From NCBI RefSeq assembly GCF_004339765.1, contig NZ_SMGO01000001.1, positions 124,001 to 188,000 of the forward strand: DNA of 64,000 bases, given 5' to 3'. This document shows positions 18,883 to 22,866 of the stretch, piece by piece. Position numbers and translations under genes: made by a program. Source of the DNA: Albibacterium bauzanense (GTDB lineage: Bacteria > Bacteroidota > Bacteroidia > Sphingobacteriales > Sphingobacteriaceae). The notes under the pieces are model-generated. The model made no database searches, had not been told where the DNA came from, and worked only from the letters and a program-made list of their open reading frames with translations. How positions within the stretch are numbered: the first letter of the stretch is position 1; each line of letters starts with the position of its first letter.

Positions 18883-20073
18883 TTAATCTTTCTCAGCGAT
18901 GAAAACACCTTCTTGATTTAAAATTTCCCTATTCTCAATTAATTTAGAAAGGTTAATTGTACCAATTACATATTTGAAGTTATCTGCTTCATAGCGTTCG
19001 CTTATTGATTTAAAGCCAAGCTTTTCAATCAAATTATTATCTTCATAACGTAAATATACATTTAGATCCCAGTTAGAGCTATAGCCTTCTAAGTCTGAAT
19101 CATCCGTTGTTAAATGCTTTTTATATTCGTAACGGTAATCATAGCGTAAAGCAGCAATATCTGAAAGTACAGCAGAGCCAGTAGGATGACCACCTGCACC
19201 TTTACCATAGAAAAATTGTTGATCAGCAAATGCTGCTTGAACCACCACACCATTATATTCATTCTCTACCTGATAGAGGATATTTTCCTTGTCTACCAAT
19301 TTAGGAAGAACATACAAAATTACTTGTTTATCGTTTATTTTACGGGCAGTAGGAACTAATTTAATCTTTAAGTTTTTCTCCTTCGCAAAACGTACGTCCT
19401 TATCATTTAAGGTTTCAATTCCTATGTTTAAAACCTCTTCCGGATCAATAAACAAACCATAAGCATGTGATGCAGCAATTACCAATTTGTATTTAGCATC
19501 AAATCCTCCTACATCCAATACCGGATTAGATTCAGCGAAACCTAAGTCTTGAGCTTGTTTTAATGCAACAGCATACTCCAGGTTTTCATTAAATATTTTA
19601 GAAAGAATATAGTTAGAAGAGCCATTGAAAATACCACTTATTGAATGGAGTAATTCATTGTCATAATATTCTTCCAGATTACGAATAATAGGTATACTGC
19701 CACATACTGCTCCTTCGTATAAAAGAGAAACATTATTTGCCTGTTGCAGCTCAACTAATTCTTTCAAATGAGAGCCAATCATTTTCTTATTGGCAGAAAC
19801 AACATTTTTCCCATTTTGTAGAGCTTTCGAAACAATTTCAAATGCTACTTCAGCATCATCTATTAATTCGATAACTGTATTTATTTCAGGGTCTTCAAGA
19901 ATGTCGTTGGGGTTGGTATGAAACAGTTCCTGAGGCAGGGTTCTTTTCTTTTCCGGATGTTTAATAACGAATTTTTTTATTTCGAGATTAAGTTGTTTTG
20001 TTTTGATGATATCATAAAGTCCTTGACCGACTACACCGAAACCAAAGATACCTAGTCTTAACCGTTTTTCCAT
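18883..20073 (-). CDS. hom: Homoserine dehydrogenase
   Basis: 396 residues. An N-terminal NAD(P)-binding motif (GIFGFGVVGQGLYDI), the catalytic-domain signature (GIFNGSSNYILSKI with the AQDLGFAE region and a conserved DVGGFDAKYKL) and no separate C-terminal ACT domain of usual size. It makes homoserine from aspartate semialdehyde. The gene abuts metX with no spacer and is the third gene of metY-metX-hom, so homoserine is produced next to the enzymes that acetylate and sulfhydrylate it. A stand-alone hom without fused aspartokinase is found here. Confidence 0.93.
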   Translation of the reverse strand: MEKRLRLGIFGFGVVGQGLYDIIKTKQLNLEIKKFVIKHPEKKRTLPQELFHTNPNDILEDPEINTVIELIDDAEVAFEIVSKALQNGKNVVSANKKMIGSHLKELVELQQANNVSLLYEGAVCGSIPIIRNLEEYYDNELLHSISGIFNGSSNYILSKIFNENLEYAVALKQAQDLGFAESNPVLDVGGFDAKYKLVIAASHAYGLFIDPEEVLNIGIETLNDKDVRFAKEKNLKIKLVPTARKINDKQVILYVLPKLVDKENILYQVENEYNGVVVQAAFADQQFFYGKGAGGHPTGSAVLSDIAALRYDYRYEYKKHLTTDDSDLEGYSSNWDLNVYLRYEDNNLIEKLGFKSISERYEADNFKYVIGTINLSKLIENREILNQEGVFIAEKD

Positions 20074-22510
<2,437 letters not shown>

Positions 22511-22546
22511 AAATTAACTTTTCTATTGAATTTGCTTTGGGATGGC

Positions 22547-22591
22547 TTAACAGCAACAACAACCATCAAGGCATATACACATCTGAGGCAT
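22547..22591 (-). CDS. Cys-codon leader peptide upstream of metY
   Basis: A 14-codon ORF reads MPQMCICLDGCCCC and stop: six Cys codons, four of them consecutive directly before TAA. A second in-frame ATG would give the 11-residue MCICLDGCCCC. On the transcript, GATGG (22567-22563) and CCATC (22545-22541) can pair so that the Cys codons sit in the loop. The ORF lies between the SAM aptamer and metY. By analogy with amino-acid attenuators it would report on charged tRNA-Cys. The reading frame is seen directly; translation and function are inferred. Confidence 0.6.
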   Translation of the reverse strand: MPQMCICLDGCCCC

Positions 22592-22677
22592 TCGAGGAAT
22601 AACGAACGCAAAAGGAGATGTAGATTTAGCTTGTATGCTAAGTTTGGTTTGGTAGATATTGTTTTTTGTTTGCATGT

Positions 22678-22790
22678 CTTTAAAATTTATATGCTCCCAT
22701 TAATTTGGGACAGGAATTGGCACCTTTTCTTTTCGGATGGTTGCCAGTGGTTCATCGAGCCAGTCTCTCGCCACTTCTTTATAAATCAAG
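22678..22790 (-). ncRNA. SAM-I (S-box) riboswitch aptamer
   Basis: The minus strand carries the S-box core in order: AAGAAGTGGCGAGAGACTGG, then CTCGATGAACCACTGGCAACC, a variable P3 loop (CATCCGAAAAGAAAAGG), GGTGCCAATTCCTG and a P4-like stem. The P1 arms GATTTAT and ATAAATT pair, extended by CTT/AAG with a bulge. These are the conserved SAM-I elements, including the kink-turn GATGA and the GGCAACC/GGTGCC segments. It stands in front of metY-metX-hom, where high SAM should lower methionine synthesis. The downstream expression platform is not a plain terminator. Confidence 0.92.
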
Positions 22791-22834: not shown

Positions 22835-22866
22835 CAAATATACAATCCATTCTTGGATTTGCAAAA
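22835..22866 (-). promoter_or_regulatory. Promoter of the metY-metX-hom operon
   Basis: Minus strand: TTTTG (-33; TTG at 22864-22862), 19-base spacer, TATATTTG (-7, 22842-22835). This is a complete Bacteroidota promoter. The expected start near 22827 places the whole SAM aptamer in the transcript. Confidence 0.75.

Follow-up and report, generated by a model that had tools for sequence, protein, structure and literature searches.

Leader ORFs with runs of cysteine codons have been described from several bacterial groups. In the actinobacterial cys operons surveyed by Seliverstov (2005; PMC1262725), the Cys codons lie near the stop codon of the leader ORF, terminators are absent and, in the excerpt of that paper cited here, polyY motifs are suggested as possible Rho sites. 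Cys-responsive attenuation was shown experimentally in Mycobacterium (Canestrari 2020, as reported in the excerpts of PMC9031893 and PMC9094748). A second motif, uORFC-8-2, precedes cysS in Rhodobacterales, and ribosome-mediated attenuation was proposed for it (PMC8632094, excerpt). As for riboswitches with a further input, the SAM-I riboswitch of Xanthomonas also senses uncharged tRNA-fMet (PMC7270179, excerpt). In Bacteroidota, where leader-peptide control is poorly described, there are clues to such attenuation at amino-acid operons of F. psychrophilum, and the excerpted part of that paper (PMC9723704) names neither Cys nor metY. A literature search, in which subscription journals were thinly covered, returned no account of a leader with Cys codons that follows a SAM riboswitch or that belongs to a Bacteroidota metY gene.

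The DNA analysed here (the window) is a stretch of 64,000 nt from Albibacterium bauzanense (assembly GCF_004339765.1, contig NZ_SMGO01000001.1, positions 124,001 – 188,000 of the forward strand). Coordinates below are relative to the window, and all features described lie on its minus strand. A SAM-I riboswitch aptamer is found at nt 22684 – 22787, where the full RF00162 model (1 – 108) is matched with 83 bits. This is above the gathering score of 44.4, as are the aptamers of relatives. Beginning 8 nt past the aptamer end is a leader ORF of 42 codons plus TAA (nt 22547 – 22675, MQTKNNIYQTKLSIQAKSTSPFAFVIPRMPQMCICLDGCCCC), which is thus located between the aptamer and the ORF of the presumed controlled gene, metY (nt 22424 down to 21123), encoding an O-acetylhomoserine/O-acetylserine sulfhydrylase (TIGR01326, 675 bits, cut-off 495). 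The presumed operon continues with a metX-like homoserine acyltransferase gene (nt 20074 – 21126; TIGR01392, 348 bits, below the cut-off of 500) and, as third gene, one for homoserine dehydrogenase (nt 18883 – 20073; PF00742, with PRK06349 over its cut-off). About 47 nt 5' of the aptamer, a fitting position, is a promoter-like site (nt 22835 – 22864) that matches TTG-N19-TAnnTTTG, the promoter consensus of the Bacteroidota type; with three matches in the window against 1.96 expected, the match alone is weak. With moderate confidence, this leader is read as a dual-input device, in which a sensor of charged Cys-tRNA (perhaps also Met-tRNA) would act in series with the SAM-I riboswitch.

The initial annotation had described a 14-codon ORF with six Cys codons ahead of metY and behind a SAM riboswitch. 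The six Cys codons are present upstream of the sulfhydrylase gene (nt 22547 – 22591, MPQMCICLDGCCCC followed by the stop), four of them consecutive and adjoining the TAA (nt 22550 – 22561), and the riboswitch is the RF00162 aptamer given above. The reading frame was also correct, while the extent was not: the frame is open upstream of nt 22591 to the ATG at nt 22675, giving MQTKNNIYQTKLSIQAKSTSPFAFVIPR-MPQMCICLDGCCCC, so that the 14 codons are the 3' end of the 42-codon ORF and the ATG originally chosen is probably internal. The 3.08 Mb genome contains five instances of four Cys codons directly before a stop, and the present site is the only one of the five that, judged by reading the contexts, belongs to an intergenic leader ORF. 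With regard to leader-peptide attenuators as a class, the locus has a short in-frame ORF ahead of the genes of a related biosynthetic pathway, and the cluster of codons for a related amino acid is kept across relatives as an enrichment, not position by position.

This enrichment was determined from 164 metY leaders, 87 from the same family (30 returned loci plus 60 picked from the match table, less three that could not be oriented) and 77 others (out of 80 named loci, three of which had insufficient upstream DNA). Thirteen leaders did not carry the 3' aptamer motif as defined, leaving 148 unique leaders, and in 146 of these an ORF of 15 or more codons starts no more than 90 nt from the motif, the first ATG being taken mechanically. 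The loci entering several of the counts were picked by hand. In the 146 ORFs, the last 12 codons include at least two Cys in 117 cases, at least three in 105 and at least four in 94. After removal of similar leaders, 96 of 128 have at least three Cys in this position; the corresponding figures are 33 of 5120 for dinucleotide shuffles and 3 of 128 for reverse complements, in agreement with the earlier view that a CCCC terminus at the stop is unlikely to arise by chance. Cys accounts for 38.0% of the last ten residues and 2.1% of the remainder, and Met for 13.2% and 1.7%, respectively. Both Cys codons are in use (TGT 329, TGC 226), and 8-mers made of Cys codons, such as TGTTGCTG, were observed 45 times against 0.62 expected. 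A search of 201 family genomes for the motif Cys-Met-Cys-Cys-Cys gave 115 matches; 103 of these are in genomes for which the position of metY was recorded, and in 46 of the 103 cases metY follows on the same strand at a distance of no more than 350 nt.

The Cys codons do not keep their exact positions. In 33 close pairs of leaders, Cys codons show 25 changes to other residues versus 7 synonymous changes, and the nearest relative, which is also the only congener (L002), carries three Cys (RMCSPSTIFQGYCC). Conservation of Cys codons and frame, the check suggested at the outset, is therefore found across metY leaders as a class and as an enrichment, and is not found residue by residue. By the criterion of sequence comparison, a Cys-codon leader ORF behind a SAM riboswitch and before the sulfhydrylase gene is an element conserved as a class.

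The riboswitch accompanies these ORFs closely. Of 20 metY loci from the family, 19 carry a SAM-I aptamer, and so do all members of a further set of 20 (19 metY loci and one cysH locus, L183). Counted from the aptamer ends given by Infernal, the leader ATG lies 6 – 10 nt 3' of the aptamer at 37 of 38 metY loci, the exception being L030 (15 nt), and in 35 of the 37 it is the first ATG. The spacing spans loci of Sphingobacteriaceae (Pedobacter, Mucilaginibacter, Sphingobacterium), Hymenobacter, Pontibacter, Chryseolinea and Lewinella. The first ATG falls at 6 – 10 nt in six of 60 other SAM riboswitches of the phylum, and at least two of these six are themselves metY leaders (L276, L279). As the ATG is locked near the aptamer, the 3' strand of P1 lies within the region needed for a ribosome to start on the leader ORF, and the spacing suggests that SAM would block this start.

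SAM-I riboswitch matches are present in 167 of 198 phylum genomes, and 90 such regions were read, comprising the 30 best loci plus 60 selected from different families. A poly-Cys ORF that begins no more than 120 nt from the aptamer was seen in a single one of the 90, L269. None is found at the second SAM-I riboswitch of the A. bauzanense genome (L207, G000:C2:65718-65826), which is upstream of a metH-like gene that we take to be metH. Locus L269 is one and the same as L183; the gene behind its riboswitch and poly-Cys ORF is cysH (PF01507, with PRK02090 over its cut-off), and the ORF that follows is presumably a sulfite reductase gene. A search for cysH gave matches in 49 of 119 class genomes, and 4 of the 30 loci read have a poly-Cys ORF directly upstream of the gene (L330, L331, L332, L333), all in families other than that of A. 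bauzanense. A SAM riboswitch is present in L333 and absent in L330 – L332. The cysH of A. bauzanense itself (L334) has no poly-Cys leader.

The separate occurrence of the two elements, with poly-Cys leaders lacking a SAM riboswitch at cysH (L330 – L332) and SAM riboswitches lacking such leaders in 89 of 90 regions, is what would be expected if the ORF were a Cys-tRNA attenuator independent of the riboswitch and the constant spacing reflected nothing beyond a shared A/U-rich start region. Such independence does not readily account for a 6 – 10 nt spacing that is kept across the genera named above and is mostly not seen at other SAM riboswitches, and it is considered unlikely, if still a credible alternative.

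Similar ORFs were encountered before other genes. Of 30 loci inspected from a phylum search for Arg-Met-Cys-Cys-Cys, three are leader-like (L211, L212, L216), all of them preceding the same kind of dioxygenase gene, and the remaining loci overlapped genes on either strand or lacked the surroundings of a leader. A search for five Cys codons before a stop (30 loci, among them the cysH locus L183) mostly returned sites within or opposite genes, or without a start codon. Poly-Cys leader ORFs (e.g. MSNKRNMFNFFKGRMQANMRMCCCCCC before the stop) occur directly upstream of a PhyH-family gene at L190, L191, L194, L212 and L216, in two families; the assignment (PF05721) was obtained for L191, and a SAM riboswitch was not found at L191, L212 or L216. 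In three genomes of one genus (L360, L361, L362), short ORFs ending in CMCCC lie just upstream of a receptor-like gene that, by its look, we take to encode a TonB-dependent (SusC-type) receptor. At L318 and L320, within the first 460 nt of the oriented region, a SAM riboswitch is followed by a hairpin and then by a second leader ORF, which ends in RMCMELCCSS or RMCMPVNI and is upstream of a receptor-like gene.

The Cys cluster is missing from some groups of metY leaders. Most of those from Sphingobacterium end in RMR directly before the stop, with CGAATGCG at the end. A near-invariant string, CGAATGCGNTAGTCGTC, with a matching GACGACC downstream, is also seen in leaders of this genus (e.g. L109, L116, L054). 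Several Cyclobacteriaceae leaders have kept an ATG near the usual place and show no Cys cluster, while at L103, L104 and L105 the cluster is replaced by several Met codons (MSMRMRMHMHLPTC before the stop), a possible switch to Met sensing. In view of these three groups, some lineages may have abandoned Cys sensing or substituted something else for it; alternatively, the end of the peptide may have a different role.

One such role would be that of an arrest or effector-binding nascent peptide, in which a C-terminus rich in Cys, Met and Arg (RMC, RMR, CMCC) would arrest the ribosome chemically (through a thiol, a metal, or contact with SAM or Met) and not through a scarcity of tRNA. The recurrence of RMC and of RMR before the stop, the presence of CGAATG in 37 of 128 leaders against 5.8 expected, and the retention of the RMR end in clades without Cys would all suit a peptide of this kind, for which copper sensing provides a published precedent (PMC9973294, excerpt). 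Against this, the number, order and spacing of the Cys residues vary freely, and the targets, metY and cysH, are genes of sulfur assimilation. An arrest peptide is accordingly thought improbable, and the sensing of charged tRNA is retained as the preferred reading.

If a ribosome on the Cys codons is to influence metY, the RNA that follows is of importance. Relative to shuffled sequences, the 75 nt beginning at the leader stop fold most strongly (mean z -1.83, n = 114 leaders), the Cys end of the leaders does so to a lesser degree (z -1.14), and the 75 nt ahead of metY show no excess of structure (z -0.09, n = 117). In most of the listed Mucilaginibacter, Sphingobacterium and Pedobacter leaders the 5' arm of a hairpin is found not more than about 11 nt from the stop. 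The formal covariation test covers Mucilaginibacter only, using 20 of 24 leaders (L044, L048, L064 and L101, with no clear CACG stem, were omitted before the count); 93.3% of the cells are paired and the covariation score of 0.232 is reached by 0 of 500 shuffles, with both sides changing in only 2 of 6 pairs. In Sphingobacterium, a GTCGTC/GACGAC stem begins in the stop codon and shows matched changes in L115 and L124, while the Pedobacter stem is uninformative on covariation because its arms hardly vary. Clade-wise RNAalifold predictions gave no universal element, and for two genera (g18, g21) any structure was weak or absent. Four Cytophagales leaders (L131, L146, L155, L162) share a conserved-looking CTGCC-GTGAC-GG hairpin after the stop, and also carry a GCAACA able to pair with Cys codons.

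This last pairing, downstream of the Cytophagales Cys codons, and the structure at the Cys ends, which exceeds that of shuffles, could be taken to mean that the TGTTGC repeats are an RNA-level element rather than codons. An element of that sort would not need an in-phase ATG at fixed spacing, the use of both TGT and TGC, or interspersed Met codons, and it is very improbable. Codons read by a ribosome remain the favored explanation.

At the A. bauzanense locus itself, the GATGG/CCATC hairpin that the initial annotation had drawn with the Cys codons in its loop can be discarded, as its pairing probability is 0.01 or less in four folds, which included free RNA and masked ribosome footprints; an alternative CATCC/GGATG pairing reaches at most 0.05. 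A different hairpin is predicted between the leader stop and metY (nt 22484 – 22521, minimum free energy structure, a thermodynamic prediction only), the inner CTGCTA:TAGCAG stem of which has modelled pairing probabilities of 0.97 – 0.99 in four folds. It begins about 25 nt after the leader stop, beyond the reach of a ribosome at the stop, so that occlusion is not obvious here.

No intrinsic terminator or terminator-like site was found at the locus, and an antiterminator/terminator pair with a U tract was seen neither there nor, by eye, in 28 folded leaders. At L318, from the same family, a hairpin with a U tract can be recognised by eye behind the SAM riboswitch, so that the absence of a terminator at the A. 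bauzanense locus is probably real. Rho is encoded in the genome. The sequence after the leader stops is mildly enriched in pyrimidines (C 27.7% and G 15.0% at 0 – 15 nt, T+C 63% at 15 – 30 nt). Of the features of mycobacterial-type Rho attenuators, there is a Cys run near the stop and no terminator; in the place of a rut-like region behind the ORF, the pyrimidine enrichment is only mild. Either Rho-dependent termination or the post-stop hairpin may provide the mechanism.

The remaining alternative, a chance ORF or a functional small protein, can be set aside as extremely improbable: the body of the ORF shows almost no codon-position bias (131/129/157 differences), as would a chance ORF, but this is also expected of a leader with a dispensable product, while such bias would be expected in the body of a functional protein, and a chance ORF does not explain 96 of 128 leaders against 33 of 5120 shuffles.

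Under the dual-input reading, the first sensor would be the SAM-I riboswitch, with the 3' strand of P1 about 8 nt upstream of the leader ATG. Binding of SAM would stabilise P1 and, judging from the spacing, hinder ribosome loading on the leader ORF. The second sensor would be the cluster of Cys (and Met) codons adjoining the leader stop, where a ribosome would slow or stall when charged Cys-tRNA is scarce. Held at the end of the ORF, it would keep the post-stop RNA unfolded, shielded from Rho, or both, and transcription would continue into metY; with ample Cys the ribosome would depart and metY expression would be attenuated. The expected logic is that metY is on when both SAM and Cys are low. 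We infer translation of the leader, the sensing of charged tRNA, the termination mechanism and the direction of the response, the last (on at low Cys) by analogy with known leader peptides and from the occurrence of the module before cysH, which Cys shortage is expected to induce. Gating of leader translation by the riboswitch, in series, is the least certain step of the mechanism and is given slightly less than an even chance. A wider formulation is put forward tentatively, with confidence a little short of even: that in Sphingobacteriales and Cytophagales SAM-I gates a Cys/Met-codon leader and not metY directly, so that attenuation operates only at low SAM, and that the module, with or without the riboswitch, has been reused at cysH and perhaps at other sulfur-related genes.

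Should this be correct, a ligand riboswitch would be chained to a translated attenuator so that two sulfur metabolites would be the inputs to a logic operation carried out by one RNA leader, and a single mRNA could read both SAM and cysteine supply. The division of sulfide between Met and Cys in Bacteroidota would become testable, and a codon signature would be available for tracing other genes under Cys control (cysH and possibly receptor and lipid genes).

Compared with known systems, the poly-Cys leader is of a kind already described from Actinobacteria, while its coupling to a riboswitch, the gene and the phylum look new. As far as the excerpts of the published descriptions extend, the actinobacterial leaders likewise have Cys runs near the stop and no conserved terminator hairpin. 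The leaders described here differ from them in phylum, in preceding metY and not cys operons, in having a SAM-I riboswitch directly upstream, in their enrichment in Met codons, and in their ORFs of 19 – 54 codons that start beside the aptamer. The uORFC-8-2 motif is similar in having a uORF with tandem Cys codons, and is distinguished by an intrinsic terminator, two prominent stems, only two Cys codons, cysS as target, and no riboswitch in the excerpted description. With the SAM-I (S-box) riboswitch, RF00162, the locus shares an aptamer that fits the full model; unlike it, there is no terminator hairpin, and it is the leader ORF whose start codon is held at a fixed spacing. The Xanthomonas SAM-I element also combines SAM-I with an input from tRNA charging on a met operon. 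According to the excerpt, that RNA binds the tRNA directly and controls the SD, whereas the sensor proposed here is a translated ORF with Cys codons.
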